26,422 bases of DNA. It comes from a virus. The stretch's first letter is position 1. The number at the start of each line of letters is the position of its first letter. The notes under the pieces are model-generated. The model worked only from the letters and a program-made list of their open reading frames with translations. It was not told where the DNA came from and made no database searches. Below are positions 4,301 to 25,259 of the stretch, piece after piece. Position numbers and translations under genes: made by a program. The DNA lies in the IMG/VR virus record IMGVR_UViG_3300031569_000033, positions 1-26,422 of that record; one strand, 5' to 3'.

Positions 4301-4873
4301 GATAGTTTATTCCAATCATATGGTGCTGAAATTAATAAAATAAAATCATTAAGTGACGAAGTTATATATCATCCTGTAAAATATAAAGTTTTATTTGGAG
4401 CCAATGCTACTTTAGATTTACAATCATCTTTTAAAATTGTAAAGAATCCAGAGTTAGTATTAAATGATAACGATATTAAATCAAGAGTAATTAGTGCAAT
4501 CAATGAATTTTTTGCATTAGAAAATTGGGAGTTTGGCGATATCTTCTATTTCTCAGAACTTTCGACATATGTAATGAATCAATTATCACCTGACGTAGTA
4601 ACATTCTTAATTGTTCCTGCGCAAGTATCACAATCTTTTGGTTCGTTATACGAAATTAAATCAGAATTAGATGAAATTTTTATAAGCGGAGCAACTGTTG
4701 ATAATTTAGAAATAATAGATGCTATAACAGCAACTAAAATTAGTGCATCAGGAACTGTTGTAACAAGTTCTATAACAGCAAACACAGGCATTACAAGTTC
4801 AAGTAGTTCAAATACAGGGATTACAAGTTCAAGTAGTTCAAACAATAGCAGTAGCGGAGGTAGTAGTTACTAA
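1388..4873 (+). CDS. gp6: gp6-like baseplate wedge protein, enlarged
   Basis: A protein of 1161 residues against about 660 in T4 gp6. The N-terminal domain is typical: FDNLRRTMISYLRENYPEDF and YLAIIDLIAFLGQNLAFRID at residues about 35-80, then AERRESVLRLARLLSYNP. The central RQRAPATYYTQNRLVTGEDY (417-436) is the gp6/J-type signature. Residues about 1000-1085 (INEFFALENWEFGDIFYFSE) form the C-terminal dimerisation-type domain. The extra length lies mainly between residues about 450 and 1000 and in a Ser/Thr-rich tail after residue about 1115. Residues 813-824 match the EF-hand calcium loop. gp6 forms the inner ring of the baseplate and clamps neighbouring wedges. The start is set by AAGGAAG, about 5-7 nt upstream. 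The stop overlaps the next start (TAATG). Confidence 0.92.
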   Translation: MSSTDRQNRLLVAEDWKRIYQTYNNADFKSYDFDNLRRTMISYLRENYPEDFNDYIESSEYLAIIDLIAFLGQNLAFRIDLNARENYLELAERRESVLRLARLLSYNPKRNIAANGLLKIESVRTTETLLDSNNFNLEQQTILWNDPSNPDWNEQFTKVLNSALPVNGTFGRPVKKEVVNGVPTQQYRFNSTNADVPAYSFSKPVDGSTTRFEIVSTDISDGAILEESPFPGNNFAFLYRDDGRGPASSNSGFFCHFRQGTLDQGTFNVSNPSSNQTVAVDATNVNNTDVWLYKLDSFGNEVEQWTKVEAVEGNNVIYNSLSKNIRNIFSILTRIDDRVSLIFSDGVFGNLPQGNFRVYYRTSKNQRLVVDPKDMRGISIDIPYASRTGKIETISITYSLQTTVDNATVSETNANIRQRAPATYYTQNRLVTGEDYQIGPLGVSQEIIKTKSVNRTASGISRYFDLLDATGKYSKTNLFGTDGVLYKEFTTNKEKFTFVTQTDVSGVILNNITPILSSKQMRNYYFVKFPKTDTSDLNITWVQSSSDTNLSTGYLQNVNSIKQLLGTFTTSILKLIRPGTSLKFNAPAGKHFMPDGTLMDGEATHLNSRSYKWVKVISVSGNGTEVSATGTGPVTFNDIIPSTAKLVEIKPFLAKNLQTDVQAQLTDQIFAYKTFGLRFDINLGQWRIITETNLNVTGAFNTGKTGDNTNQQLDASWLLKFTNDGETYTVESKGSRYVFESDQEIRFYFDSSDKIYNSLTGKIVKDKIGVLNNNNKPDSVNSFTVDMDWEITKEYRDVEGYVNSKKVEVTFFDEDDDGVVDDPEIFDVIVDEDINPLTKYVFQKKLVTTDGVEDYNYVDNAVEGILIKLNEDTVGALSAYNNNQIFYLTNTEVFKKYDSSLGTLTLITDYKAHIGRDKLKFQYVHAADDNTRIDPSSSNIIDTYLLTRTYDTSYRKYLDGTTITKPLTPSSDSLFQSYGAEINKIKSLSDEVIYHPVKYKVLFGANATLDLQSSFKIVKNPELVLNDNDIKSRVISAINEFFALENWEFGDIFYFSELSTYVMNQLSPDVVTFLIVPAQVSQSFGSLYEIKSELDEIFISGATVDNLEIIDAITATKISASGTVVTSSITANTGITSSSSSNTGITSSSSSNNSSSGGSSY
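3824..3859 (+). other. EF-hand-type calcium loop in gp6
   Basis: Residues 813-824 read DEDDDGVVDDPE. They fit the 12-residue loop consensus: acidic residues at positions 1, 3, 5 and 9, Gly at 6, a branched hydrophobic at 8 and Glu at 12. The flanks look like beta strands (VEVTFF, IFDVIV) rather than helices, so this would be an isolated calcium loop and not a paired EF-hand domain. Metal binding is inferred. Confidence 0.55.
4781..4840 (+). repeat. Tandem 30-nt direct repeat in the 3' end of gp6
   Basis: Two head-to-tail 30-nt copies (4781-4810 and 4811-4840) differ at two positions and encode NTGITSSSSS twice. A weaker related unit precedes them around 4761-4780. They form the core of a Ser/Thr/Gly tail, probably a flexible linker, and look like a recent slippage duplication. 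Confidence 0.85.
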
Positions 4874-4875
4874 TG
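4856..4875 (+). promoter_or_regulatory. GGAGGT RBS and TAATG stop/start overlap
   Basis: GGAGGT at 4856-4861, inside the last codons of gp6, precedes the giant gene's ATG by 11 nt. The gp6 stop TAA (4871-4873) shares its last A with that ATG (4873-4875). This implies translational coupling between gp6 and the giant protein. The RBS encodes part of the Gly/Ser tail of gp6. Confidence 0.65.
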
Positions 4876-7800
4876 GCATACGACAAAGATCAAATGGAGC
4901 CAGCACTTCCAGGTGGCGATGATAGCATTAGAAGAAAAAGCGAAAATCACTTACCTAGATATTTCAGAACTTCACACAACTCTAAATTTTTATCTAGCAC
5001 ACTTGACCAGTTAATACAACCGGGAGTAGCAGAAAAGTTAAACGGCTATCTTGGACGTAAAGTTAGTAAAGCATTTAAGCCTACAGATAATTATATTGGA
5101 GCAGTTACTAGCAGTAGAGAACAATATCAACTTGAGCCTGCGGCAGTTATTAAAGATAACTTAGGTAATGTTACCTATTATAAAGACTATAATGATTATA
5201 TAAACACTGTAAGTAATCTTGGCGGAAGTGTAACAGATCATAGTAGACTAAACACTCAAGAAACATATGCTTGGAACCCGCATATTGATTGGGACAAGTT
5301 TACAAATTATAGAGAATACTATTGGCTACCTAATGGCCCTGACCTAGTGACAGTTATAGGACAAACAAAAGATGTTATTAGTACATACACTGTTGCCTTA
5401 GGACAAAATGTTGATAATGTAACATATGTATTTTCACCCGACGGTCTAACAAATAATCCAACGTTGAAACTATATAGAGGCCAGACTTATAGATTTGAAA
5501 TTGACACACCAAATCATCCTATGGCGTTTGCAACAAAGAAAAGTTTCACACCTGGCGAAGCAGTAGTTATTGAAACTACAGATGGTGTTCGTAGTTCAGG
5601 CGTATTTGATGTTGTCTTGTATGATCAAGACGGTACAGCATATGATGCTGGCGGGTTTATTATAGATCCTGTAACTCAAGCACAGGCAGTTGGAAGTGTA
5701 AGTTTTGGAGATGCAACTAATACTAGTTTAATATATGATACTGGTATTTCTAAGGTTGACGCTGACGGTAACGCACTTGCTACAGTCTATATTGAAAAAG
5801 GTATCATAGAATTTACAATACCGGATACTGCTCCAGATGCATTATATTACATTTCAAAAAATGATCCTAATGTAGCAGGATATATGCAGATCTTTGACAT
5901 TGAAGATAATACTGCTATTAATGTCGAAGCAGACATTTTAGGTAAAAAAACTTATACTACTAGTAACGGGTTTGCCTTGTCAAATGGCATGAAAGTAGAG
6001 TTTGCTGGAGAAGTTACGCCTGTAAAATATGCCTCTAATGAATGGTATGTTGAAGGTGTTGGCGACAAAATAAAATTAGTGCGCCAATCAGATCTAACAG
6101 TTAGTGGATCATTTACTGACGATATTTCTGTACCCTTTGACGCCCAAGGATTTGACTTTTATCCATTTAGTGATGCAATAGGATATCCTACTAAAAAAGA
6201 TTATATAGTTATTAACCGTGCAAGTTTAGATGGAAATCTATGGAGTAGATACAATAGATGGTTCCATAAATCTGTTGTCGAAACAAGTAATACGTTAAGC
6301 AATAATCCGTCAACAATACTAGAAGACTCTAGAGCAAAAAGACCAATTATTGAATTTAATCAGGGTTTAAAATTATTTAATTTTGGAACAAAGTCTAAAA
6401 CAGATGTTGATTTAGTAGATACCTTTACAACAGATATATTTTCTACTATTGAAGGTAGTGCAGGATACAATGTTGACGGAGTGAATCTTACTAACGGAAT
6501 GCGTGTATTATTCACAGCAGATACAGATGACTTAGTAAGTGGAAAGATTTACAAAGTAAGTTTTATTACTTTTAGGAACAACATCCAAATATCATTAGTT
6601 GAAGAAACAGACACTCCTCCAGTTACTAATGAAAACGTTTTTGTAAAATTTGGCACAGTTAATGGCGGAAAGTTTTTTAGTTATAACGGAACTACGTGGA
6701 CAGTAAGTCAACAAAAAACTTCAATTAATCAACAACCGTTATTTGACATGTACGATGCTAAAGGAAATGCGTTTAGTAATACAACTAACTATAATTCAAC
6801 AACGTTTGCTGGTAATAAGATATTTGCATATAAAGTTGGTACAGGAACTAATGATGCAGAATTAGGATTTCCGCTTTCGTATAGAAATATAACAAATACT
6901 GGTGATATAACATTTGACTTTGCATTAACTGGTAATACATTTACATACCAAGTTGGCACTGTACTTTATACATCTAAAACAGAAACAGGGTTCTTAAGAA
7001 AGTATTCTACAATTGATACTTTTGAATATACGAATGGATGGCTCAAAACAGCTAAACTAAGTAACCAGCCTGTAATCAGACAATACATATACGATAATAC
7101 AACTGATAACTTCTATATAGACGTTTATAATAATGTTGATTACATTACTAACTTGTGGTTAACAGTTTACTTAAACAACAAACTGCAATTCAAAGATGTT
7201 GACTACACTGTTGCGCAAGACGTAAACGGAGTTTCATATATTACATTTGCAAATAGTCTTACTACAGATGATGTAATTGTTTTAAAAACAAAAAGTAAAT
7301 ATCCTAAGAACGATAATGGATATTATGAAATAGCTAAAAACTTAGAGCGCAATCCGCTTAACGATGATATTACGGAATTTACTCTAGGTGAAGTTAATGA
7401 TCACGTATCTACAATAGTTGAAGAAATTAATAATTTTTCAGGAGTATTTCCTGGACCAAGTAACTTGCGTGATATAGGAAATTTATCAGCTAACGGCAAA
7501 AAGTTTTTAAAACATAGTGGTCCTATAAATTTAGCAATGTATCATTTAGTTGACCCTCAAGCAAACATTGTAAAATCAATGCGTTATGCTAGAAGAGAAT
7601 ACGGCAAGTTTAAAAGACAATTTTTAGAAACTGCAAACACCTTAGGCTTTGAAGGTCCAGTTAAAGAACACGTAGATAATATATTAAAAGAAATGAACAA
7701 AGATAAAACGTCTAGTATGCCGTTTTACTTTAGTGACATGATTCCACAAGGCGGTTCTGTAAAAACTACCCATGCTGTATTAGATTCAGATGAAAGATAT

Positions 7801-10800
7801 TTTCCATTAAGTGCAACATTTTCAATGTCGGTGCTTAGTAGAAAAGCAGTACAGATATACTTAAATGGAACACAATTAACTCACGGTAAAGATTATACAT
7901 TTAACTCAGAAGGATTTGCTGATGTAACTGCAACAAAGGCAGTCGGCGATGCAATTGATGTATACGAGTATGATAGTACTAATGCAAGTTTTGCTCCACC
8001 TACTCCTACAAAGCTAGGATTATATCCAGCATATCATCCTCAAATTTATACAGATAATACTCCGGTAGTTCCTGTAACAGTAATTGAAGGTCACGACGGT
8101 AGTAAATTTGTTGGGTATGACGACTTTAGAGACAATTTATTATTAGAATTAGAATTAAGAATTTATAATAATATTAAGATTTCTTATGATACTAATATTT
8201 TTGACATACATAATCTTTTACCAGGCAAAGATAGAGACACTGGATTTACACGACAAGAAATAAATTCTTCAATGACAGCTGATTTCTTACAATGGAATCA
8301 ATTAGTTGACGGAGATTATGTTTCAAATTCTGGCTTTGATAGAAATAACGCATTTACGTTTAATTATTCTAGCACACGGTATAAAAATGGTACACAGAAT
8401 TTACCAGGTCATTGGCGCCAGACTTATATGTATGCGTTTGATACTGATCGCCCACACACCCATCCTTGGGAAATGCTAGGCTTTACAATTAAACCAACTT
8501 GGTGGGAAACAACATACGGACCTGCGCCATACACCCGCAATAATAAAGTGTTGTGGCAAGATTTAGAGCAAGGCATAGTTAGAGAACCTAAAAAGTCAAT
8601 TGTAGTGCGCTCTAAGTATATACGTCCTGGTTTACAAACTACTATTCCTACAGATGACGGCGGAAACCTTTTAAGTCCAAACGCATCGGGCATTTTAGAT
8701 AATTTTAATTCTGAATATGTTACAGATAACTGGGTAGTCGGAGACGGTGGCCCAGTTGAGTCGGGTTGGAGACGTAGCAGCGAATATCCGTTTAGTTTAA
8801 TAACAGCTTATATACAAAATCAACCAAATGCAATTTTTGCTGCAGGATTTGATAGGTCTAGACAAAAAAGAAACTTAGCAAATCAAATTGTGTACGGTGA
8901 TTCAGGCGTTTCAATTAAACTTAGTAATATTGTATTTCCAAATACGATCGACGATACTTCACAGATTTTTACTAGTGGACTTATAAATTATATTTCAAAT
9001 TATTTAAGTAGTAACACTGCTGCTTCGTATACAAAATATAAACAGAATTTGGTTGCAATTAAAAATCAAATAGGTAGTAAAATTGCAGGATACACTGATA
9101 AAGAAAAATTTAGATTAATACTTGACTCTCGCACACCTACTAATGAAGGCAATGTCTTTATACCCAAAGAAAATTACAATTTAATTCTAAACACTAGTAG
9201 CCCTATACAAACTGTTAGTTATAGTGGTGTAATGATCGAAAAACAAGCCGAAGGGTATGTTATAAGAGGTTATGATAACTTTGTACCTAATTTTAAATAT
9301 TATAAAAGAATAGTACGAACAAATGATCCTATAATAAATGTTGGCGGCATATCAGAATCGTTTGTTAATTTTGATAGTGACAAAACATACTCTGTAGGAC
9401 AAATAATAAAAACTGGCGAGTCGTTCCTGAGAGTAACAACAACTCATATTAGTAGTACAAATATAGATGCTAGTAAATTTGCAACTATTCCTGAACTTCC
9501 GTTAATTGGCGGAGCAGTTGCTTCAATGCCACGAGTGTTTGAAGATACATTAAGTACTTTAAATTATGGCGACAAATTATCTACGTTACAAGATGTTGTT
9601 GACTTTTTATACGGCTACGGAAAATATCTAACAGACCAAGGATTTGCTTTTGAAGAACGCATCGAAGGGTCAAACGAAGTAGCGAACTGGCCAACAAGTG
9701 CAAAACAGTTTATGTTCTGGACTACACAAAATTGGGCAGCAGGAACTTTAATAACTATATCTCCTGGTGCAAAAAAATTAAAACTACAGTCTAGTTATAG
9801 TGTTGTTGATAACATATATGATACTTTTTACGGATATAGTATTTTAAAAGGTGACGGGAAAAAATTAAACAGCGAGTATATACGTATTGCAAAAGGTGTA
9901 GAAAACGAATGTACTGTAACTGTTGTTAATTCAGCAGACGGCATTTTTGCTGCAAGATTTCCATTAGTTCAAAAAGAACATGTATTACTTTTAGATAATA
10001 AAACAGTGTTTAATGATGTAATTTATGATCCAGCTCCTGGTTATAGACAAGAACGAATTAAAGTATTAGGTTATCGTACTGATAACTGGAACGGCAGTTT
10101 AAATATTCCTGGCTTTATATATGATAATGCAAATGCTGTTGAGTGGGAAGCCTGGTCAGATTATACTATTGGCGATCTAGTTAAGTACAAAGAGTTTTAT
10201 TATAGTGCAGATAAGAAAGTTACAGGCACGCAATTATTTAATGCAGATGATTGGAATAGATTAGATAAAAAGCCAGAAGCTGGCTTACTAACAAACTTTG
10301 ATTACAAAATTAATCAGTTTGCAGACTTTTATGATTTAGATAGTGACAATTTTGATACAGAGCAACAACGATTAGCACAGCATTTAATTGGATATCAGAA
10401 ACGAACTTACTTAGAAAATATTATTAATGACGATGTAAGTCAATATAAATTTTATCAAGGGTTTATTTTAGATAAAGGTTCTAAAAACTCTCTTACTAAA
10501 TTATTTGATGCTCTTGCTAGTGCTGATCAAGAAAGTTTAGAATTCTTTGAAGAGTGGGCAATTAAAGACGGTCAGTATGGAGCAAGTGAAGGCTTTGAAG
10601 AAGTTGAATACTTGCTTGACGAAACGCAGTTTAGATTAGATCCACAACCAATTCTATTAACTGATACTGGCACTGGACAGGAAACTGATTTAGTTTATAG
10701 AATAAAAGACCACGAAACTTATTTAAAAAGCAATAACTACGATCATTCACCATTCCCTACAAAGTATATTCAAAAAGGATATACAAAGGACTCAGGATAT

Positions 10801-13800
10801 GTAAATCCTAAAGATGTTGATCTAGTTGTTTCTACATATAATGACATTGCTAATAAAAACTTTGACGATATTAATAGTCAAGATTATGTATGGGTCGGCA
10901 ATGTTAATCAATCATGGTCTGTTTATCAACATGTTATTACAGACTACATAATCGAAGCAGTAGAAACATCAGCAGGTGAATTTACAATTACTGTTAATGC
11001 AACTCCGCTAGATATAAGCACTGGTGATGTGTTAGGTTTATTTAATTTACTTATAAAAACATATGCACCGGGTCAGTTTGACAGCGCACTAGACTTAACA
11101 CAAACAGTAAGTCCGATTAAAGGTTTTTACAAAGTTAAATCTGTAGCACTAAACAAAATTACATTTGAAACTACTGAAACTATTGTAGCAGTAGAGGAAT
11201 GTGAAGGTAAATTAAGTAAATTTATTAGTGTTAGAGTTGGCAATTTATCCGAAGCTAATACACTAGCTGAACAAGAAATAGATGCAGAAGAAAAATTGTG
11301 GATAGACAATGCAGGAAATGACAAATGGTTAGTTTTACAAAATAAAAACAAGTTCAATGTCCAGCAAGAATTGTCAAATAGCGAAACAGGCACAGACCAC
11401 AACTATGGAACATCGATTGCAGTTGATGACAGAAATGTTAGATTAGCTGTAGGTGCTCCTGACTTAGGTGACAATGGTAAAGTGTTTGTATACAATAGAT
11501 CAAGCAATGCTTTAAATTATACATTGTCGCAAGTATTAGATCCAGAAGCAAACATTACTGCTACAGGTCAAAAATACGGGTATGATGTGTCAATGAGTGG
11601 CGATGGAGAATATATCATTGTTGGCGCCCCGTATGCATCTAATGTAAAAACAAACTTTAAAAATGCATTTAGCACTACTGCTAATTACGCTGCTGGTGAC
11701 ATAGTTAGTTTAAATAACGGCTTATGGCAAGCAGACGATGCAATTTTAGGTGCAGTATCAAATATTACGTTTAATAGCTTTGATAGTGTAGCACAGATAA
11801 ATTATGATATTAATAATTATACCCAAGATGCAGTAGATATTCCAGTAATATTAACTGGCGACTATCCTTTTAAAAATATAACTACTGATCATTTCTTATT
11901 ACGTGCTCCTAAAGCAATGTATGACGGTTCAGGACAGGGTGATCAAATATATTTAAGATGGAACAGCCTTGCTAATGCTAATCAAACACAGATTAACTTA
12001 ACTACACGGGCGCCGTTTGATGGTAGTATTCCGTACTTGTCAAAAGAATACTTAGAATCAGAACATACCATTAGTTATAAAATTGATGCAATATTATATA
12101 TTGACGCATCTAACAATATACCAGCTGTTGGTGATATAGTTACTACACAAGGAGCAACAGCAACAGTTGTTTATGTACATAATGAATCAGCTCAGTTAAC
12201 AATTTATGTTAATAATATAAACGGTGAATTTCCATTAGAAAACAGTTTGTTTATAAATGGAAACGATTTTATAGGCGAATATCAGCGCATAGGACCAAAC
12301 GAATCCATAACTACAACTGGTTCATGGGGCGGCTATTGGTTCATTCAATCAAGTAATCCTTATGCTGTAGGAAGCACTAATGCAGATGCTGGTAGATCTT
12401 TAGTGTTTAAAGACTTTGTATCAATATCCGATGTAGCTACAGATAGTACGTTAGACGGATATTACTATAACAGTTTAGATTATGCAACTAGTATACAAAA
12501 TAGCGAAAGCGTAATTAATAGTTTTATTCAAACGTTAAGTTTTACCGGCACTCCGGGACCATTAGGAAGTTCAACTCCTGTAGTAAGTAGAAAATTTGTT
12601 GTACGGGCTCCTAAACTATTATCAGATGCTTCTTCAGCAGGTGAAAAGTTTACACTCTATTTAAATAATTTACCAGATACTGTAACAACAGTAAAATTTG
12701 ATTCATTGTTATCAATCGGCGCTGGAGAAATTATTACACAGGCTGTTACAGGTGCAACGGCAGTAGTGTTAGAAAATACAACTAGCAGTTATACAGCAAA
12801 AGTTAATAGCATTACTGGATCGTTTGATTTAATTAACTTATTATCATTTAGTTCCAGCGGTAATCTTGGTATTAAACTAACAGAATTGCCAGTGCAATCA
12901 TTTATATCAGATCCTAGTGCTATAGGATTAAATTTTAGTGCTACTAATAAAGAGCACACTATTGACGATATATGGGACGGATATATTTCATTTGTTAATA
13001 CAAAGTTTTTAAATGGCGAACCTTTTGAGCCTATTGTAGGCCAAACAGTTAGAGATAAATCAACTCAGGCTACTGCTGAAGTAGCGTATTATCAAAGAAG
13101 TTTAAATAATGTAACAATATTTGTTAAAAATGTTTCAGGTAACTGGAGTTTAGGTAATCAATTCGGTAACAACGCTGAAATAGAAATGATGCCATATGCT
13201 CCAGGACCAAACCCAGACGTCTATGGCCGTAGCGGAATTTACACTATTCCAAGAGTAATGGGTCAAATACAGCGTGTTAACTTAGGCACTGATTCAGCAG
13301 GTATTGGTAAGTTGTTTGTTGTAGATACAAACGCAAATATTACTGCACCAGCCGGCGATTTTAGAACTGCTTCACAGCTTGGTGCAAAAATTGTTAACAA
13401 TTCATTAACTGGAGACTTTGCATACTTAGAACCAGATACTAATTTTGAATACTGGATGTATAAGCAAACTGTAATTAATGGCATTCCGCGTTCTGCAAAT
13501 ACTCCGACGAGTGATAACCTAGATTGGACTGAAGTCTATAAAGTTCCTACAGCGTCAACCGGCAGTATTGGTGATACTCCATTTACAAACGAGGGAATTT
13601 ACTACATATACCAAAAAAATAATGGCGGCATTTATATCAGCCTAGGTAGTTTTGTTGGACCAGAAAGACAGTCTAATAATTACTTAGGTTCTATAGTAGA
13701 AGTTACTAAAAGTGCAACCGGAATTTACAGAGGATTTGTTAGTGCGCCAGCAGACACAACAGTATCTAATCCTGGAAAGATTTATTTCTTAAAGAATGGA

Positions 13801-16800
13801 ACAGAAAACGGCATTTTGTATAATTGGGAATATGCTAAAAATAAAAATTACAAAGGCGAATTTAATGCTTCGTCTAGTTATTTTACAGGAAATATTGTTT
13901 CATTAGATGATAAATTGTACAATGCTGTTACAAATATTACAGCAGGTACGTTTAATGCATTACAGTGGAATAGCACAGATGATTTAATTGACTATGTAGG
14001 GTATGTTCCAAATGACACCGGCGTTAGTATTATAAACGACAGTAGTTATGATCTTAGTACAGTATTAGATCAAGGGCTATTGTACGATTTCGCAAATAGC
14101 TTTGATGTTACGCCTGATGGTGAAGTGTTAATTGTAAATGCTAAGTATGGCAACGGAAAACCTAACTTAGTTGTTGTTTATAGAATCTTAAACGGACAAT
14201 ATCAGCGCTCACAGCAACTTACTTCGCCTAGCAATACAGAAGCATTCGGCGAAAGTATTGCTATTAGTACTGATGGTAAATTAATTGCAGTATCGGCTCC
14301 GTTAGACGATACTAATAAAAATAATCAAGGCAAGGTTTATATTTACAAAAAGGTAAATGAGATATTTGTATTCTCTCAAACACTAATGAGTCCTAACAAT
14401 AAGACTTCTCAGTTTTTTGGAGACAAGATTGATTTTGACGGCAACAGATTAGTTGTAAATTCTAAAAACGGCAACAACTGGGTTGATACAACTTTTGATG
14501 TTTATTCATCACCTACTGGCGTTGGATATACATTAGATAAAACTAGTACAAAAAATCTTTCTAGTACAGTGTTTGATAACGATTTTACAACATACAAAAA
14601 ACAATATGAACAACAAGGTTCTATATATGTGTATGAAGTTATAAATGACACACTAATGTATGCACAGCAACTACAATATCAAAATACAACTAGTGCTGTT
14701 ACTGAATTCGGTAAAGACTTTAAACTTAAAAACAACCATGTTTATGTTGGATTGCCTAAAGTAAGTGTAAATGCTGTGTACACCGGTAGTGTTATTGACT
14801 TTAGAATACCTGACAATAAAATGATTTGGGAAACTTTAAGACAGCCAAAAGACGCTGTAGATATTTCAAAAATTAAACGTGCAATTTTATATAATGTAAA
14901 AACAAATAAGTTACTTACATATTTAGATTATATTGACCCAGTACAAGGAAAAGTTGCAGGACCAGCTGAACAAAATCTTACATATAAAACATATTACGAT
15001 CCTGCATATTATACTGTAGGGGATAATAACGTAACTGTTATGCCCTCAGCAAGTTGGGGAGCAGAACAAGTTGGCGAACTGTGGTGGAATCTTACAAATG
15101 CAAAATACTTAAATGCGTATCAGTCAGATGTTATATTCTCAGCAAATAACTGGAGTCAGTTATTTGATAGTAACACAGTTGATGTCTACGAATGGGTAGA
15201 GTCTGATGTATTGCCTAGTGTGTGGAATAGCCAAACTAACCAAACTGCCGCAGTTGTAGATGGTATAGATGGTACCAGTTTATATGCTGATACAGTTTAT
15301 TCATCTAGACAAACATATGATAAAATAAGTGGCACGTTAGGTATTAAGTATTACTTTTGGGTTAAAAACAAGCGAACAATGCCCGATGTAGATTTTAGAA
15401 CAATAAGCTCGTTTGATGTTGCAAAATTAATTGAAGACCCTAAGGGACAAGGATATAAATTTGCGGCACTTATTTCAGAAAATAGTTTCACATTATATAA
15501 CTGTGAAAGTTTGTTAGAAAATAAAGATGTTGCATTTAGTTTACAGTATTGGACTATTGATAACCAAGATATAAACATTCATAATCAGTATCAAATTGTA
15601 ACTGACGGACTTTCAACAAGTAAACCTAATAGAGATATTGAACGTAAGTGGTTTGATAGTCTAGTAGGTTATGATGAGCAAAGTAAACAGGTACCTTCAC
15701 CAAATTTATCACCTAAACAAAAATACGGAATTTTAAATAGCCCAAGACAGAGTTGGTTTGTAAATAGCGCCGAAGCTCTTAAACAAGTGATGGAAAGAGT
15801 AAATGCCGTATTACTAGAAAATTTAATAATTGATAATAAAGATCTTACAAAGATCAAAGCATCAGCCCTGCAACCTAGTGTAGTAAGTAGGGAGTTTGAC
15901 ACAACTGTTGATACTGTTGCAGATTTAGAGTTTATTGGTGTTGCAAAGGCACAGCAAGCAACTATGCAGTTAACAGTTAACGACGGTGTAATTACAAATG
16001 TTGTTGTATTAAATGCAGGCCGCGGTTACCTTGTTGCTCCTACGTATAAAATTGTAGGAACAGGAACAGGTGCTGAATTAGAGTTTACAATAAACAATTT
16101 AGGTGTTATAACAAATGTAAGTGTAGTCAACGGCGGAACAAACTATAGTTCAACTGCCGTAATTACAATTAGAAGATACACAGCACTAGTAAAAACTGAC
16201 GAAACTATATTAGGTAAGTGGGCTTTATATGAAAGAGATAGTACAGCAAGAATTTGGCAACGAACAGCAAGCCAATCATACGATGTAACATTATTTTGGG
16301 ATTATATTGATTGGTATGCAACCGGTTACACTCAATTTACAGAGACAAATTTTGTAATTGAGGGAGCATATCAACTACCAAGTATTAATGATACAATTGG
16401 GGACGTTGTTAAGATAAACAATGTTGGCTCAGGCGGTTGGCTATTACTTAGAAAAATAACTAACCAGGCTAATGTAGATTATACAATTAACTATGAAACT
16501 ATTGGTAGACAGAATGGTACTATTAAATTTAAGAATACACTCTACGACACAACTGCAAGTGCAACTGGATTTGATATTATTAGTTTTGATTCTCAATTCT
16601 TTGACAGTGTACCTAGCACAGAAATTAGAGCTGTTTTAAATTGTATTAAACATGATCTGTTTACTGAAGAATTGGCACTTGAATATAATAAACTGTTTTT
16701 TGCAAGTTTACGTTATGTATTCTCAGAACAACAAAATGTTGACTGGGCGTTTAAGACAAGTTTTGTAAAAGCAAAACACAATGTAGGACAGCTTCGTGAA

Positions 16801-19800
16801 GACATTACGTTTAACAATGATAGTCTACCTAGTTATGAAAAATATCTAGAAGAAGTAAAGCCATTTAAAACAAAGTTACGTGAATACCTAAGTGCTTACG
16901 AAAAACTTGACAACAGTCAAAGTAGAGTTACAGACTTTGATTTACAGCCGATATATAATGACACTACAAAACTAATAGAACCGCAAAATGTAAAAGTAGT
17001 TGGCGATACATTAATTGGTATAAATGATTCTTTAGAAACATATCCGTTTAAAAATTGGACAGATAATGTTGGATTTAAAGTAACAGAAATACAAATAGCT
17101 AATGGCGGATCAGGGTATACACAGGCACCTACTATTAAATTAACAGGCGGTGGCGGCACTGGTGCTACAGCTATTGCTAAATTAGGAGTAAACGGAACTG
17201 TAACAAGTGTAGAAGTTACAAATAAAGGAAGTAGTTATATTACTGCTCCTACATTAATGTTAACTGGCAGTGTATCTGAAACAGGTAAAAATGCAAAACT
17301 TAGTGTTATCCTAGGAGACGGATTAACAAGAGGAATGCTAAACGTAGTAAAATTTGATAGAGTAAGCGGTGATTATTCTATTACTAGTATTAATGAAACA
17401 GAAACATTTACAGGCACTGGCTCCAAGTACATTTACGAACTAAAATGGCCAATGGATCTTAAAACTACAAACGTTACTGTAACTGTAAATAACATTGAAC
17501 TTTTAAGAAGTGAATATAGCTTTATTAATATAAAAGATAGTACCACAACAAGTTATACTAGGTATCATGGAAAAATTACACTTGCAGAACCAACACCTGT
17601 TAACACTTCTATTGTTATTACTTACAAAAAAGCAATTAGCTTATTAACAGCACAGGATAGAATAAACATTGCGTACAATCCTGTAACAGGTCAATTTGCA
17701 AAAGACCTTGGACAGTTAATGGACGGGGTTGACTATGGCGGAGTAGAAGTTAAAAGTTTCGACTTTGGCGGCCCTACAGGCTGGGATACAGCCCCTTGGT
17801 TCACTAGCGAGTATGATACTTACGACCAAACTTTTGAAGATGAAACGTTTACTTTAGATGGTAGTACAATTAGTGTTACATTAGCTACGCCTTTAGAAAG
17901 CGGAGTTGTATATAACTTATACAAAAATGGTGTAAGATTAGATGACCCAGACTGGGTAAATGACAGTTCGCAGTTTACAAATCCAAATGCCGTAATGAGA
18001 AGTATAACAGGTGATGGAGTACAAACATTAATTGAGTTAGATGAATTAGGTATATCTAATGGAGCAAATGATGTTATAGTTATACGTAAGAGTACTAGCG
18101 ATGGAAGTTTCCTTCCTGTTCCAGGAACGTATGACACACTTATTGAAGGCGGCGCCTTAGAATACAATACTGCTAAAGGCATACTTGCAGAAGAAATTAA
18201 TATTGACGGTGACGGGTTTGCAACAACTGCTAACAGCGGCGGCCCAGACGAGAATCTGCCAGGCAGAGTATTTGACACAGTTGATATAAAGGTTTATGAA
18301 AGGCCTACGGGCGGATCTAGTAAAATACATTCAAGAAATTACGTAGGCGACGGTACAACTACAGATTATGATATTGGAACAACCCCTATATTAGACGAGC
18401 TAGTATTTGTAAAAGTTAATAATGTTATACAAACAGCATACACTATTGATTATGAAACTAACAAAGTTAAATTTACTACTGCACCAACATTAGCATCTAA
18501 AATTAATCTTGTAACTCTAGACTATAGTGGTACAAACATATTAGACTTAGATGAATTTATATCGGATGGTAGTACAGCTGATTTCTTAACAAACATTACA
18601 CATACTCCTAATTTAAGTAGTTTAGTTACTATTGACGGTAAAAAAGTTGAGCATGTTCTTACAAAAAGTAACAACACATATGCTGCAGAAAATAGAATTG
18701 TTATCCGATTTGCAGAACCTCCTAAGATTGATGCTGTAGTAAAATATGCAATTTTTGAAGGACCTATACAAAACTTTAGTGCAGTGACTATAGACGAGTT
18801 TATTGCTGATGGTAGCACGATATTGTTTGATCTTACACAAACACCGTTTACACAAAAGCCACATGAATGGTTTACTATTGTACAAGTAAACAACACAATA
18901 TTAAATGCAGGATATTCTCAAAAATATGTTATGACAGAGTCAAGAGAATATCAGTTAAAGCTATGGCAAGTACCTACAGGTTCTGTAAGGTCAGGACAGT
19001 TAAGAATTTACTTAAACGGTCAAAAAATTAACTATATTGACGATTGGTCATTTACAAGTGCAGGTCAGTATAATTCTGCATTAGACGCTGACGATCAACT
19101 AGGTAGTGCGGTATTGTTAAATGCCAGTGTTGGAGCACCTGGTGACATCTTAAGAATATATATTGTAGGACAAGAAGACAGTACTGCCGCAGGCGGAGAT
19201 TATAGATATGGTTACTTTGACAACGACAATAACTTTGTAGAAGATGACGGAAAATTATCTATCTATTCTACTTTGTCAAACGGTGACAAGGTTAAAGTTT
19301 ACCAGTTTAGTAACCACGACACTCAAGGTATTGAACGACAGAGTTTAGATGTTGTTGAGCGTACACTACTATCCCCAGGTGTTGCAGCTAACAGACAGGT
19401 ATTTGAAATTGACGGAAGCACAGCAAATTTAAATTTATTACCGCCACTGGCAGCTAGAAAGCAATATGCAGTATATTTAAATAATACAAGAATTGACGAT
19501 CCAAATTACAATACTGCACAGCAAACAAACGACAACGCAGTACTATTAACAATTACTGGAGCAGAGCAAACTATTTTTGATGCGCAAGCAACAGGACTTG
19601 TTCTTATTACAGGTGATATTTTAGAAATTGTAGAACTTGGTGCTAGTGTTACTCCTGACAGCGGTACAGCTGACTGGTATGAACTAAGACAACTAAGAGC
19701 TGGGTATATAAATTTACAAAGTCCAGCAGTTGACGATCAGTACGTTTGGGTTGTTAAAAACGGAACCTTATTAGATCCATCAGTTGACTATGTTGTTACT

Positions 19801-20625
19801 CCTAATAAAATGCGTATTAAGTTAAAAGAAAACTTAGATGAGAACGACACTGTTGAAACTTTCCATTTTGCAAAAGAAACTTTGAAAAATAAGTTTGGAT
19901 GGCGACAATTTAAAGATATATTAAACAGAGATATCTATAAGAGATTAGATGGTAGACAAAATTACAGATTATCTGAACCATTAGCATTTAATGATAAGGT
20001 AATTACAGTAGATAATAGTACTAATTTACCTGACCCAGTTCCAGGATCAAAGTATCCGGGTGTAATATTTGTTGACAATGAACGTATAGAATACTTTAGA
20101 AAGACTGGTAATACTCTTGGACAGCTAAGAAGAGGAACATTGGGTACTGGAATTAAATCAATTTATTCTGTAGGCACAGAGCTGTATGATCAAAGTCAAA
20201 CAGCAACTATGCCATATAAGGACGAAGTATTAACAAGTACATTTACAGCTGATGGTACATCAGCAGCTTATGATCTTGACTTTACTCCTGCTAGTGTAAA
20301 CGAGTTTGAAGTATTTGTTGCAGGTCGTAGACTAAGAAAAACAGCATTAGAGTCGTATCAGTTAGATACAACGTTGCGTACAACATATGCAACATCGACA
20401 GAACAAATTAGTCAAGATTCTCCATTAGGAGATGTAACTTTACCAGCAGAGTTTAGCATACAGAACAGCAACGAATTAGTGTTGCTAGAAACACCAGGAG
20501 TAAATCAAAAGGTAATAGTAATAAGAAAACAAGGTAGAATATGGAATGTTCCAGGCACAGCGTTAAGTAATGCAGAATCCGACATTAGTAGATTCTTAAG
20601 ATCAGCAACGGTTGACTTACCCTGA
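4873..20625 (+). CDS. Giant modular virion structural protein (5250 aa), probable outer baseplate
   Basis: One uninterrupted ORF of 5250 residues (roughly 0.58 MDa at 110 Da per residue). It lies directly after gp6, where T4 encodes gp7 and the other outer baseplate proteins. No catalytic domain, signal peptide or membrane helix is evident. Modules in order: N-terminal conserved region with LPRYFRTSHNSKFL and NYREYYWLPNGP (1-158); degenerate cupredoxin (197-345); RPIIEFNQGLKLF region (458-516); helical segment with AMYHLVDPQANIV (870-955); KPTWWETTYGPAPYT region (about 1194-1220); carbohydrate-binding-like units (1499 and 1757); conserved helical core with AQHLIGYQKRTYLENI (1814-1930); interrupted FG-GAP propeller (2177-3298); GSGY repeats (3702-3766, 4070-4132); DGST-type beta modules (4326-5170); RIEYFRKTGNTLGQLRRGTL near 5071-5090. 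Several of these motifs recall very large structural proteins of marine T4-like phages. The exact gp number and function are not established here; a wedge, fibre-network or adhesin scaffold role is inferred. Confidence 0.8.
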   Translation: MAYDKDQMEPALPGGDDSIRRKSENHLPRYFRTSHNSKFLSSTLDQLIQPGVAEKLNGYLGRKVSKAFKPTDNYIGAVTSSREQYQLEPAAVIKDNLGNVTYYKDYNDYINTVSNLGGSVTDHSRLNTQETYAWNPHIDWDKFTNYREYYWLPNGPDLVTVIGQTKDVISTYTVALGQNVDNVTYVFSPDGLTNNPTLKLYRGQTYRFEIDTPNHPMAFATKKSFTPGEAVVIETTDGVRSSGVFDVVLYDQDGTAYDAGGFIIDPVTQAQAVGSVSFGDATNTSLIYDTGISKVDADGNALATVYIEKGIIEFTIPDTAPDALYYISKNDPNVAGYMQIFDIEDNTAINVEADILGKKTYTTSNGFALSNGMKVEFAGEVTPVKYASNEWYVEGVGDKIKLVRQSDLTVSGSFTDDISVPFDAQGFDFYPFSDAIGYPTKKDYIVINRASLDGNLWSRYNRWFHKSVVETSNTLSNNPSTILEDSRAKRPIIEFNQGLKLFNFGTKSKTDVDLVDTFTTDIFSTIEGSAGYNVDGVNLTNGMRVLFTADTDDLVSGKIYKVSFITFRNNIQISLVEETDTPPVTNENVFVKFGTVNGGKFFSYNGTTWTVSQQKTSINQQPLFDMYDAKGNAFSNTTNYNSTTFAGNKIFAYKVGTGTNDAELGFPLSYRNITNTGDITFDFALTGNTFTYQVGTVLYTSKTETGFLRKYSTIDTFEYTNGWLKTAKLSNQPVIRQYIYDNTTDNFYIDVYNNVDYITNLWLTVYLNNKLQFKDVDYTVAQDVNGVSYITFANSLTTDDVIVLKTKSKYPKNDNGYYEIAKNLERNPLNDDITEFTLGEVNDHVSTIVEEINNFSGVFPGPSNLRDIGNLSANGKKFLKHSGPINLAMYHLVDPQANIVKSMRYARREYGKFKRQFLETANTLGFEGPVKEHVDNILKEMNKDKTSSMPFYFSDMIPQGGSVKTTHAVLDSDERYFPLSATFSMSVLSRKAVQIYLNGTQLTHGKDYTFNSEGFADVTATKAVGDAIDVYEYDSTNASFAPPTPTKLGLYPAYHPQIYTDNTPVVPVTVIEGHDGSKFVGYDDFRDNLLLELELRIYNNIKISYDTNIFDIHNLLPGKDRDTGFTRQEINSSMTADFLQWNQLVDGDYVSNSGFDRNNAFTFNYSSTRYKNGTQNLPGHWRQTYMYAFDTDRPHTHPWEMLGFTIKPTWWETTYGPAPYTRNNKVLWQDLEQGIVREPKKSIVVRSKYIRPGLQTTIPTDDGGNLLSPNASGILDNFNSEYVTDNWVVGDGGPVESGWRRSSEYPFSLITAYIQNQPNAIFAAGFDRSRQKRNLANQIVYGDSGVSIKLSNIVFPNTIDDTSQIFTSGLINYISNYLSSNTAASYTKYKQNLVAIKNQIGSKIAGYTDKEKFRLILDSRTPTNEGNVFIPKENYNLILNTSSPIQTVSYSGVMIEKQAEGYVIRGYDNFVPNFKYYKRIVRTNDPIINVGGISESFVNFDSDKTYSVGQIIKTGESFLRVTTTHISSTNIDASKFATIPELPLIGGAVASMPRVFEDTLSTLNYGDKLSTLQDVVDFLYGYGKYLTDQGFAFEERIEGSNEVANWPTSAKQFMFWTTQNWAAGTLITISPGAKKLKLQSSYSVVDNIYDTFYGYSILKGDGKKLNSEYIRIAKGVENECTVTVVNSADGIFAARFPLVQKEHVLLLDNKTVFNDVIYDPAPGYRQERIKVLGYRTDNWNGSLNIPGFIYDNANAVEWEAWSDYTIGDLVKYKEFYYSADKKVTGTQLFNADDWNRLDKKPEAGLLTNFDYKINQFADFYDLDSDNFDTEQQRLAQHLIGYQKRTYLENIINDDVSQYKFYQGFILDKGSKNSLTKLFDALASADQESLEFFEEWAIKDGQYGASEGFEEVEYLLDETQFRLDPQPILLTDTGTGQETDLVYRIKDHETYLKSNNYDHSPFPTKYIQKGYTKDSGYVNPKDVDLVVSTYNDIANKNFDDINSQDYVWVGNVNQSWSVYQHVITDYIIEAVETSAGEFTITVNATPLDISTGDVLGLFNLLIKTYAPGQFDSALDLTQTVSPIKGFYKVKSVALNKITFETTETIVAVEECEGKLSKFISVRVGNLSEANTLAEQEIDAEEKLWIDNAGNDKWLVLQNKNKFNVQQELSNSETGTDHNYGTSIAVDDRNVRLAVGAPDLGDNGKVFVYNRSSNALNYTLSQVLDPEANITATGQKYGYDVSMSGDGEYIIVGAPYASNVKTNFKNAFSTTANYAAGDIVSLNNGLWQADDAILGAVSNITFNSFDSVAQINYDINNYTQDAVDIPVILTGDYPFKNITTDHFLLRAPKAMYDGSGQGDQIYLRWNSLANANQTQINLTTRAPFDGSIPYLSKEYLESEHTISYKIDAILYIDASNNIPAVGDIVTTQGATATVVYVHNESAQLTIYVNNINGEFPLENSLFINGNDFIGEYQRIGPNESITTTGSWGGYWFIQSSNPYAVGSTNADAGRSLVFKDFVSISDVATDSTLDGYYYNSLDYATSIQNSESVINSFIQTLSFTGTPGPLGSSTPVVSRKFVVRAPKLLSDASSAGEKFTLYLNNLPDTVTTVKFDSLLSIGAGEIITQAVTGATAVVLENTTSSYTAKVNSITGSFDLINLLSFSSSGNLGIKLTELPVQSFISDPSAIGLNFSATNKEHTIDDIWDGYISFVNTKFLNGEPFEPIVGQTVRDKSTQATAEVAYYQRSLNNVTIFVKNVSGNWSLGNQFGNNAEIEMMPYAPGPNPDVYGRSGIYTIPRVMGQIQRVNLGTDSAGIGKLFVVDTNANITAPAGDFRTASQLGAKIVNNSLTGDFAYLEPDTNFEYWMYKQTVINGIPRSANTPTSDNLDWTEVYKVPTASTGSIGDTPFTNEGIYYIYQKNNGGIYISLGSFVGPERQSNNYLGSIVEVTKSATGIYRGFVSAPADTTVSNPGKIYFLKNGTENGILYNWEYAKNKNYKGEFNASSSYFTGNIVSLDDKLYNAVTNITAGTFNALQWNSTDDLIDYVGYVPNDTGVSIINDSSYDLSTVLDQGLLYDFANSFDVTPDGEVLIVNAKYGNGKPNLVVVYRILNGQYQRSQQLTSPSNTEAFGESIAISTDGKLIAVSAPLDDTNKNNQGKVYIYKKVNEIFVFSQTLMSPNNKTSQFFGDKIDFDGNRLVVNSKNGNNWVDTTFDVYSSPTGVGYTLDKTSTKNLSSTVFDNDFTTYKKQYEQQGSIYVYEVINDTLMYAQQLQYQNTTSAVTEFGKDFKLKNNHVYVGLPKVSVNAVYTGSVIDFRIPDNKMIWETLRQPKDAVDISKIKRAILYNVKTNKLLTYLDYIDPVQGKVAGPAEQNLTYKTYYDPAYYTVGDNNVTVMPSASWGAEQVGELWWNLTNAKYLNAYQSDVIFSANNWSQLFDSNTVDVYEWVESDVLPSVWNSQTNQTAAVVDGIDGTSLYADTVYSSRQTYDKISGTLGIKYYFWVKNKRTMPDVDFRTISSFDVAKLIEDPKGQGYKFAALISENSFTLYNCESLLENKDVAFSLQYWTIDNQDINIHNQYQIVTDGLSTSKPNRDIERKWFDSLVGYDEQSKQVPSPNLSPKQKYGILNSPRQSWFVNSAEALKQVMERVNAVLLENLIIDNKDLTKIKASALQPSVVSREFDTTVDTVADLEFIGVAKAQQATMQLTVNDGVITNVVVLNAGRGYLVAPTYKIVGTGTGAELEFTINNLGVITNVSVVNGGTNYSSTAVITIRRYTALVKTDETILGKWALYERDSTARIWQRTASQSYDVTLFWDYIDWYATGYTQFTETNFVIEGAYQLPSINDTIGDVVKINNVGSGGWLLLRKITNQANVDYTINYETIGRQNGTIKFKNTLYDTTASATGFDIISFDSQFFDSVPSTEIRAVLNCIKHDLFTEELALEYNKLFFASLRYVFSEQQNVDWAFKTSFVKAKHNVGQLREDITFNNDSLPSYEKYLEEVKPFKTKLREYLSAYEKLDNSQSRVTDFDLQPIYNDTTKLIEPQNVKVVGDTLIGINDSLETYPFKNWTDNVGFKVTEIQIANGGSGYTQAPTIKLTGGGGTGATAIAKLGVNGTVTSVEVTNKGSSYITAPTLMLTGSVSETGKNAKLSVILGDGLTRGMLNVVKFDRVSGDYSITSINETETFTGTGSKYIYELKWPMDLKTTNVTVTVNNIELLRSEYSFINIKDSTTTSYTRYHGKITLAEPTPVNTSIVITYKKAISLLTAQDRINIAYNPVTGQFAKDLGQLMDGVDYGGVEVKSFDFGGPTGWDTAPWFTSEYDTYDQTFEDETFTLDGSTISVTLATPLESGVVYNLYKNGVRLDDPDWVNDSSQFTNPNAVMRSITGDGVQTLIELDELGISNGANDVIVIRKSTSDGSFLPVPGTYDTLIEGGALEYNTAKGILAEEINIDGDGFATTANSGGPDENLPGRVFDTVDIKVYERPTGGSSKIHSRNYVGDGTTTDYDIGTTPILDELVFVKVNNVIQTAYTIDYETNKVKFTTAPTLASKINLVTLDYSGTNILDLDEFISDGSTADFLTNITHTPNLSSLVTIDGKKVEHVLTKSNNTYAAENRIVIRFAEPPKIDAVVKYAIFEGPIQNFSAVTIDEFIADGSTILFDLTQTPFTQKPHEWFTIVQVNNTILNAGYSQKYVMTESREYQLKLWQVPTGSVRSGQLRIYLNGQKINYIDDWSFTSAGQYNSALDADDQLGSAVLLNASVGAPGDILRIYIVGQEDSTAAGGDYRYGYFDNDNNFVEDDGKLSIYSTLSNGDKVKVYQFSNHDTQGIERQSLDVVERTLLSPGVAANRQVFEIDGSTANLNLLPPLAARKQYAVYLNNTRIDDPNYNTAQQTNDNAVLLTITGAEQTIFDAQATGLVLITGDILEIVELGASVTPDSGTADWYELRQLRAGYINLQSPAVDDQYVWVVKNGTLLDPSVDYVVTPNKMRIKLKENLDENDTVETFHFAKETLKNKFGWRQFKDILNRDIYKRLDGRQNYRLSEPLAFNDKVITVDNSTNLPDPVPGSKYPGVIFVDNERIEYFRKTGNTLGQLRRGTLGTGIKSIYSVGTELYDQSQTATMPYKDEVLTSTFTADGTSAAYDLDFTPASVNEFEVFVAGRRLRKTALESYQLDTTLRTTYATSTEQISQDSPLGDVTLPAEFSIQNSNELVLLETPGVNQKVIVIRKQGRIWNVPGTALSNAESDISRFLRSATVDLP
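5461..5907 (+). other. Degenerate cupredoxin-like domain in giant protein
   Basis: LYRGQTYRFEIDTPNHPMAF (residues 200-219) is the opening half of a cupredoxin-like fold and keeps the first His ligand (H215). TIPDTAPDALYYISKNDPNV (315-334) is the closing half. Against the usual LYYYCxxHxxMGG, the Cys, His and Met ligands are replaced by S328, D331 and V334. About 95 residues separate the halves, longer than usual. The fold is likely structural without copper. Confidence 0.55.
9367..9513 (+). other. CBM5/12-like unit 1 in giant protein
   Basis: Residues 1499-1547 follow the pattern of chitin-binding-type CBM5/12 and many phage fibre modules: TYSVGQIIKTGESFLRV, then a Thr/Ser/Asp stretch. The final Trp of the typical module is absent. 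Carbohydrate binding is not demonstrated. Confidence 0.35.
10141..10275 (+). other. CBM5/12-like unit 2 in giant protein
   Basis: Residues 1757 to about 1801 give the best match of the four: W(S/D)DYTIGDLVKYKEFYYSA followed by FNADDWNRL, that is an opening Trp, Y-x-x-GD-x-V, an aromatic pair and a closing Trp. It lies just before the conserved helical core. Confidence 0.45.
10312..10662 (+). other. Conserved helical core of giant protein
   Basis: Residues 1814-1930 are predicted helical and charged: FADFYDLDSDNFD, AQHLIGYQKRTYLEN, YKFYQGFILDKGSKNSL, FFEEWAIKDGQYGA, then LDETQFRLDPQPIL. Of the whole ORF this part looks most like a conserved, non-repetitive domain and I recall it from other marine T4-like giant structural proteins. 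It would be the best probe for homologues. Confidence 0.5.
11662..11745 (+). other. CBM5/12-like unit 3, inserted after propeller unit 2
   Basis: Residues 2264-2291 include FSTTANYAAGDIVSLNNGLW, resembling Y-x-x-GD-x-V-x-x-x-x-x-(Y/W). It follows immediately after the second propeller unit. Confidence 0.4.
11896..13167 (+). other. Internally duplicated beta-rich insertion
   Basis: Within the propeller insertion, LLRAPKAMYDGSGQGDQIYL (from residue 2342) pairs with VVRAPKLLSDASSAGEKFTL (from 2576). A second unit, VGDIVTTQGATATVVYV with LTIYVNNINGEFPL (2419-2456), recurs as a diverged copy at 2616-2660 and as VGQTVRDKSTQATAEVAYY with VTIFVKNVSGNWSL (2722-2762). Copies one and three are each preceded by EHTI. 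The function is unknown. Confidence 0.6.
13849..13986 (+). other. CBM5/12-like unit 4, inserted after propeller unit 3
   Basis: Residues 2993 to about 3038 include YKGEFNASSSYFTGNIVSLD, DKLYNAV and a closing ALQW. This is the same pattern and the same relative position (after a propeller unit) as unit 3. Confidence 0.45.
15976..17269 (+). other. Two blocks of GSGY-type glycine repeats
   Basis: Block one (residues 3702-3766) has VVVLNAGRGYLVAPTYKIVG, then VSVVNGGTNYSSTAVITI. Block two (4070-4132) has IQIANGGSGYTQAPTIKLTG, then VEVTNKGSSYITAPTLMLTG. Each block holds two half-repeats of a beta module common in phage and bacterial surface proteins. The region between them (3767-4069) is non-repetitive. 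Confidence 0.65.
17848..20382 (+). other. C-terminal DGST-type beta modules
   Basis: At least six units start with F-x-x-DG-(S/T)-T or a close variant, followed by hydrophobic strands and a V-x-V-(N/D/A)(N/G)-x-x-(L/I) strand: residues about 4326, 4490, 4562, 4643, 4844 and 5124. Units 4326 and 4844 are closer to each other than to the rest: NGVRLDDPDW against NNTRIDDPNY, each followed by NAV and SITG or TITG. They look like stacked Ig-like fibre domains. Confidence 0.6.
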
Positions 20626-23283: not shown

Positions 23284-23291
23284 AGTTAGTG
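23275..23291 (+). promoter_or_regulatory. Strong RBS for a GTG start
   Basis: GGAGGG at 23275-23280, in the last codons of fibre paralogue 1, lies 8 nt before the GTG at 23289. The encoded MSYRLNRTDG aligns with the N-termini of the neighbouring fibres, so the GTG is the likely start. It is the only non-ATG start among the complete genes here. Confidence 0.7.
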
Positions 23292-25220: not shown

Positions 25221-25230
25221 TGATAAAAGC

Positions 25231-25238
25231 GATAAATA
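25231..25238 (+). promoter_or_regulatory. Late-promoter-like motif GATAAATA
   Basis: It is identical to the octamer at 20624-20631 and ends 21 nt before the ATG at 25260. The RBS AGGGG lies at 25249-25253. It sits in the second-largest gap (25221-25259), which has no convincing terminator hairpin. Confidence 0.6.
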
Positions 25239-25259
25239 AAGTTATAACAGGGGTAACAG

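Follow-up and report, generated by a model that had tools for sequence, protein, structure and literature searches.

An integrin-type propeller with module-bearing loops predicted in a giant virion protein of uncultured phages

Can an integrin-like propeller be part of a structural protein of a phage, and what do its loops carry? The question is raised by the IMG/VR virus record IMGVR_UViG_3300031569_000033, whose 26,422 nucleotides (26.4 kb) are the window analysed here and which has near relatives in IMG/VR. The window encodes a giant virion protein of 5,250 residues, in the middle of which a first-pass annotation had proposed a beta-propeller of about seven FG-GAP blades of the integrin type, split by large insertions. 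Structural models predict such a propeller with near certainty, and its loops hold inserts in which putative carbohydrate-binding modules (CBMs) of the CBM5/12 family can be recognized. One of the largest proteins of these uncultured jumbo-type phages would then be, in part, an integrin-like propeller with loop-inserted modules, an arrangement that recurs in well over 100 phage contigs from the environment.

The fold of the middle region

Models made with AlphaFold2 (AF2) leave very little doubt that residues 2159-3321 of the giant fold as one closed, seven-bladed FG-GAP propeller of the integrin type. The model of residues 2138-3326 (54-sequence alignment; mean predicted local distance difference test score, pLDDT, 88.2; predicted template modelling score, pTM, 0.69) contains seven blades of four strands each and matches integrin alpha-M with a Z score of 30.9 (3.3 Å over 361 residues). 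Because this match spans model residues 22-1184, blades on either side of the inserts belong to one ring. The figures for alpha-M are taken from a VIA realignment instead of the ranking in a Foldseek search of the PDB with the whole model, where long multi-propeller chains with poor superposition came out on top. For L208, a natural relative free of the large inserts (434 residues, 41-sequence alignment), the model has a mean pLDDT of 92.4 and a pTM of 0.91, and it matches the alpha-M propeller with a Z score of 32.6 (3.1 Å over 348 residues). Closure into a single propeller is thus seen both in the window model with its inserts and in an insert-free relative.

Sequence comparison agrees with the models. 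Pfam FG-GAP_2 is matched in three stretches of residues 2151-3350 (1e-16), PF14312 is matched in 36 of 41 relatives, and a sequence search with an insert-free profile is enough to retrieve alpha chains of integrins (best 6.4e-8). Relatives were gathered from viral contigs via their conserved flanks, and 142 complete middle regions were aligned after 48 relatives short of the C-terminal core had been excluded. When sub-profiles of the seven blades were compared all against all with hhalign, most pairs matched with a probability of 76-99, the exception being blades 3 and 4 at only 32-50. Non-blade controls scored 0-9 against the blades, with one outlier (insert segment a against blade 7, 33-48). 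It could still be argued that the repeats form a string which never closes into a single ring, or that fewer than six of the units are true blades, as just three Pfam stretches in the window pass unaided and blades 4 and 6 lack the canonical GAP motif. This we regard as extremely improbable: both AF2 models have seven four-stranded blades, with neither an open ring nor a count below six, the integrin matches run across the whole domain, and nearly all pairs of blade profiles match. The propeller does lie where the first-pass annotation had put it, at 11401-14766, though its true span passes both of these ends (Table 1).

No integrin-type DxDxDG calcium motif is present in the window, and a generic motif occurs in 2 of the 142 relatives. 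The domain is an FG-GAP_2 propeller of integrin-type fold without calcium loops, and so no integrin. Its likeness to the integrin alpha propeller, especially to the alpha-I integrins alpha-M, alpha-L and alpha-X, includes the seven FG-GAP blades, Z scores of 30-33, an alignment that begins at integrin residue 1, and, on the same face, the insertion of a large domain close to blade 2. In integrins the alpha-I domain sits between blades 2 and 3, whereas the big insert of the window lies within blade 2, in the loop from strand 2 to strand 3; CBM5/12 and other modules take the place of the I domain, and the carrier is a phage virion protein. Bacterial integrin-type propellers also have seven FG-GAP/Cage blades outside animals, but carry calcium motifs in all seven (PMC3192720), and the window in none.

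Modules in the propeller loops

The two insertions of about 680 and 90 residues that had been annotated between blades are present as large inserts, with altered sizes and partly altered places. Insert 2 (about 78 residues) does lie between blades 3 and 4, while insert 1 (about 650 residues) lies inside blade 2, and there is a third insert of about 47 residues in blade 6, for which the commonest length among relatives is 28. The limits earlier suggested for deleting the two insertions from a model, residues 2262-2930 and 2978-3066, do not hold: they would remove strands 2908-2915, 2921-2928 and 2981-2987 and thereby break blades 2 and 3. Both large inserts begin, as had been noted, with a carbohydrate-binding-like unit, the first half of a CBM5/12 module in insert 1 and a complete one in insert 2. 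Pfam CBM_5_12 is matched in two stretches of residues 2151-3350 (4.2e-7) and in 8 of 41 relatives (best 2.7e-13), and the modules of the two inserts match one another at 96 by hhalign. By sequence, then, inserts 1 and 2 appear to carry modules of the CBM5/12 family.

Insert 1 is the more complex of the two. Chunks of a block of about 570 residues do not match the CBM profile whereas both flanks do, and the block therefore most likely lies inside the CBM, which itself lies inside blade 2. The second half of the module in CBM-only relatives, taken together with the propeller strand that follows it, matches residues 2869-2912 of the window protein at 96.3 (hhalign). Insert 1 is thus probably a CBM5/12 module interrupted by an internally duplicated block, in which units termed X and Y each occur twice. 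As a clear likely example of growth by modules within modules, it sheds light on how structural proteins of phages come to be 5,000 residues long.

The FG-GAP/Cage residues of an FG-GAP blade sit beside strand 1 and in the loop that joins strands 2 and 3, at the opposite end from the 1-2 and 3-4 loops that bind calcium (PMC3192720). Since the FG-GAP/Cage end of the blades bears the insert loops, strand topology implies that the three inserts should share a face of the propeller, the one that in integrins is the ligand-facing end.

Table 1. Features of the giant virion protein of the window and of its propeller (all on the given strand; residues are those of the 5,250-residue protein)
Feature	Residues	Position	Strand	Evidence
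Giant virion protein ORF	5,250 in all	4873..20625	+	phrog_10938 'virion structural protein', E=0; directly 3' of gp25-like and gp6-like baseplate genes
Whole seven-bladed FG-GAP propeller with inserts (predicted)	2159-3321	11347..14835	+	AF2 model; integrin match
N-terminal strand, likely closing strand of blade 7 (velcro) as in integrins	2162-2168	11356..11376	+	DSSP of model; closure from alignment start at integrin residue 1
Blade 1	2175-2222	11395..11538	+	hhalign, AF2 model
Blade 2, strands 1-2	2232-2255	11566..11637	+	Pfam FG-GAP_2 match 11560-11652; hhalign, AF2 model
Insert 1 (strand 2-3 loop of blade 2)	2256-2905	11638..13587	+	No counterpart in 25 relatives
CBM5/12, first half	2256-2295	11638..11757	+	Pfam CBM_5_12; hhalign 98.9 to CBM-only relatives
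Nested block inside CBM, about 570 residues	2296-2868	11758..13476	+	Block chunks without CBM-profile match, both flanks match
Unit X, copy 1, in nested block	2305-2395	11785..12057	+	hhalign X1-X2 93
Unit Y, copy 1, in nested block	2400-2470	12070..12282	+	hhalign Y1-Y2 97-98
Unit X, copy 2, in nested block	2556-2625	12538..12747	+	hhalign X1-X2 93
Unit Y, copy 2, in nested block	2700-2790	12970..13242	+	hhalign Y1-Y2 97-98
CBM5/12, probable second half (conserved W2885)	2869-2893	13477..13551	+	hhalign 65-74, expected register; model strand 2885-2888
Blade 2, strands 3-4	2906-2930	13588..13662	+	Alignment, hhalign, AF2 model
Blade 3	2935-2988	13675..13836	+	hhalign, AF2 model
Insert 2: complete CBM5/12 module and linker (blade 3-4 loop)	2989-3066	13837..14070	+	Pfam, hhalign (CBM1-CBM2 96), AF2 model
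Blade 4	3067-3118	14071..14226	+	hhalign, AF2 model
Blade 5	3120-3172	14230..14388	+	Pfam FG-GAP_2 match 14236-14346; hhalign, AF2 model
Blade 6	3176-3268	14398..14676	+	hhalign, AF2 model
Insert 3 (strand 2-3 loop of blade 6)	3200-3246	14470..14610	+	Alignment of relatives; pLDDT partly low
Blade 7	3276-3313	14698..14811	+	hhalign, AF2 model

Further units resembling CBM5/12 were seen by eye in the N-terminal core of the giant, at residues ~1490-1540 and ~1795-1840. The only PDB match of an N-terminal core profile was a chitinase A1 chain, a weak one (E 0.016), and the first 1,033 residues of the giant matched nothing in the PDB.

Variation among relatives and cultured homologues

The propeller is present in all 142 aligned relatives; as these were recruited through the flanks and 48 others were dropped, its presence in every member is not proven. 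The size of the blade 2 slot in the aligned relatives is trimodal, with 0-31 residues in 25 of them, 55-92 in about 30 and more than 300 in about 83. Slots of the middle class contain a CBM5/12 module in most cases. L080 and L118 have in its place a different-looking module of ~75-90 residues, and the slot may accept different modules. Insert 2 has an occupied slot in 115 relatives and an empty one in 25. On a FastTree phylogeny of the N-terminal core, the three states of the blade 2 slot need at least 14 changes, and the order empty, CBM, nested takes 16 steps, while the two remaining orders take more (18 and 20). These natural empty, CBM-alone and nested forms let the role of each layer be tested by comparing variants. 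A scan of genome contigs found no prokaryotic genome encoding a relative.

The giant is homologous at both ends to the giants of the jumbo phages PA5oct (gp355), RaK2 (ORF070), 121Q (gp582), Phosso, Atu_ph07 and SCTP-2, and the first five of these also have a similar gene order. Unlike the window protein, the gp6-adjacent giants of the cultured homologues examined contain no FG-GAP repeat and gave no match to the blades. PA5oct can be followed to about residue 2018 of the window protein and RaK2, weakly at its end, to about residue 2055, and the C-terminal cores resume at residues 3279-3327; at the propeller position these two phages have roughly 55-75 residues, compared with ~1,270-1,300 in the window. 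One branch of the tree separates the propeller-bearing sequences from seven cultured ones. A tblastn search of cultured phages with the propeller region gave no match, and the insert-free relative gave a single weak one, to a stand-alone FG-GAP gene; no cultured member with an embedded propeller was found.

Glycine-rich repeats of the GYxxAPTxxxxGxGTGA type occur at residues 3682-3766 and 4065-4166 of the window protein (15916-16170 and 17065-17370); in the giants of Phosso and Atu_ph07, many copies of this repeat type stand where the window protein has its propeller region. Sinorhizobium phage Phosso (PV764938.1) has some 40 FG-GAP_2 repeats in all at ~48-69 kb and 92-94 kb, outside its gp6-adjacent giant, in two other giant ORFs (3,702 and 3,182 residues) and in small ORFs (429 and 398 residues). 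In Agrobacterium phage Atu_ph07 (NC_042013.1), a 409-residue ORF with FG-GAP_2 repeats at 243.0-243.3 kb is possibly the annotated hemagglutinin that matches the propeller fold.

FG-GAP propellers are found in other phage and giant-virus proteins as well. Stand-alone phage FG-GAP proteins (the Atu_ph07 'hemagglutinin', H6WG31 of cyanophage S-TIM5 and gene 22 of the uncultured Caudovirales LR797314) share the predicted propeller fold, but are separate small proteins instead of being embedded in a gp6-adjacent giant.

A possible role at the baseplate

The 5,250-residue ORF is real, since it recurs full-length at 99.8% identity in a second contig and at 78-79% identity in two further contigs. The gene order runs from the end of a gp5-like hub/lysozyme gene through a gp25-like gene (Pfam GPW_gp25), a gp6-like baseplate wedge gene (phrog_10646, 7e-293) and the giant to a 204-residue protein directly after it (phrog_11259) and collar/gp10-like tail fibre proteins. 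The propeller is therefore, as first annotated, within a protein encoded in a baseplate gene cluster, with gp25-like and gp6-like neighbours. The giant occupies the slot after gene 6, which is that of gene 7 in T4, and the T4-type order 25-6-7 is kept. The record of the PA5oct homologue is annotated ESI-MS/MS (electrospray ionization tandem mass spectrometry), which we read as detection in virions. Gene order and this homologue place the giant in the virion. To judge from the same gene order and from virion mass spectrometry of one distant homologue, it probably sits in the baseplate.

Two known systems bear on its function. In the evolved Dit of siphophages, a tail-tip protein, loops contain CBMs, which bind the host and are optional between relatives (PMC7291167), and Gp45 of phage phi11 is a receptor-binding protein of the baseplate with a propeller domain (PMC4901313). 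The arrangement in the window resembles both. We favour, as on balance the probable explanation, that the propeller would be a glycan- or surface-binding platform at the baseplate. It would serve as a constant scaffold in a giant virion protein at the gp7 position, beside gp6 in the baseplate wedge, and project from the baseplate rim as a rigid platform. The three loops on its FG-GAP/Cage end would carry optional modules, namely a CBM5/12 in blade 2, a short insert in blade 6 and, in the blade 3-4 loop, a complete CBM5/12, and a single face of the platform would thus offer several low-affinity modules for glycan binding or docking. These may help a particle of such size to stay on the cell surface, either before its dedicated tail fibres act or alongside them. 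A host-surface-binding role, along the lines of the host-recognition head first suggested, is plausible. The analogies are partial: in evolved Dit the carrier is the Dit galectin domain, the CBMs often have the BppA fold and the phages are mostly siphophages of Gram-positive hosts (PMC7291167), whereas Gp45 has five blades and is a separate homotrimeric protein (PMC4901313). FG-GAP propellers in phages and CBMs in tail-tip loops are already known. In the literature searched we found no paper linking FG-GAP propellers to phage baseplates, nor the combination of a propeller in a gp6-adjacent giant, CBM inserts, a nested insert and a natural series of states.

Several points weigh against the platform and the nested insert on which it partly draws. 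Sugar binding by the CBM5/12 modules is putative, and the pTM of 0.69 for the whole model makes it uncertain how the insert domains are placed with respect to the propeller. Taken without the propeller strand, the second half of the interrupted CBM matches in register at 65-74, which is moderate support by itself. In hhalign comparisons the giant matched none of T4 gp6-gp10, gp7 included, although the gp6 positive control, run like the others with single sequences, also failed. Identity between relatives is 0.28-0.37 in the inserts versus 0.32-0.41 in the blades, so the inserts diverge no faster and are in this respect unlike a fast-evolving host-range determinant.

This even pace, without hypervariability, would suit the main rival explanation, in which propeller and modules are internal assembly scaffolding that binds other proteins of the baseplate or fibres, joining wedges to one another or docking fibres, and the CBM5/12 modules have a structural task instead of a glycan-binding one. 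So would the retention of the propeller in all aligned relatives. T4 gp7 is a connector in the wedge. For phage SU10, a beta-propeller has reportedly been described in work on its tail proteins, which are said to build a nozzle for genome delivery, so that domains of this kind may serve for more than receptor binding. The gains and losses of inserts, at least 14 in number, nevertheless fit accessory decoration better than an essential interface, and 25 relatives lack insert 1 entirely; we consider scaffolding the less probable account, though one with a sizeable chance of being right. A bolder form of the surface-binding platform is possible and, in our view, somewhat doubtful: a large clade of uncultured giant phages would carry a phage 'integrin head' on the baseplate, an integrin-type propeller on whose ligand-side loops adhesive modules, some of them nested in others, could be docked and exchanged, independently resembling the I-domain integrins and setting or tuning the surfaces bound.

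Downstream of the giant, at 21268-26420, three consecutive tail fibre-like proteins have an alike N-terminal segment (matches to phrog_15511 and phrog_14394), which suggests that these genes arose by duplication.

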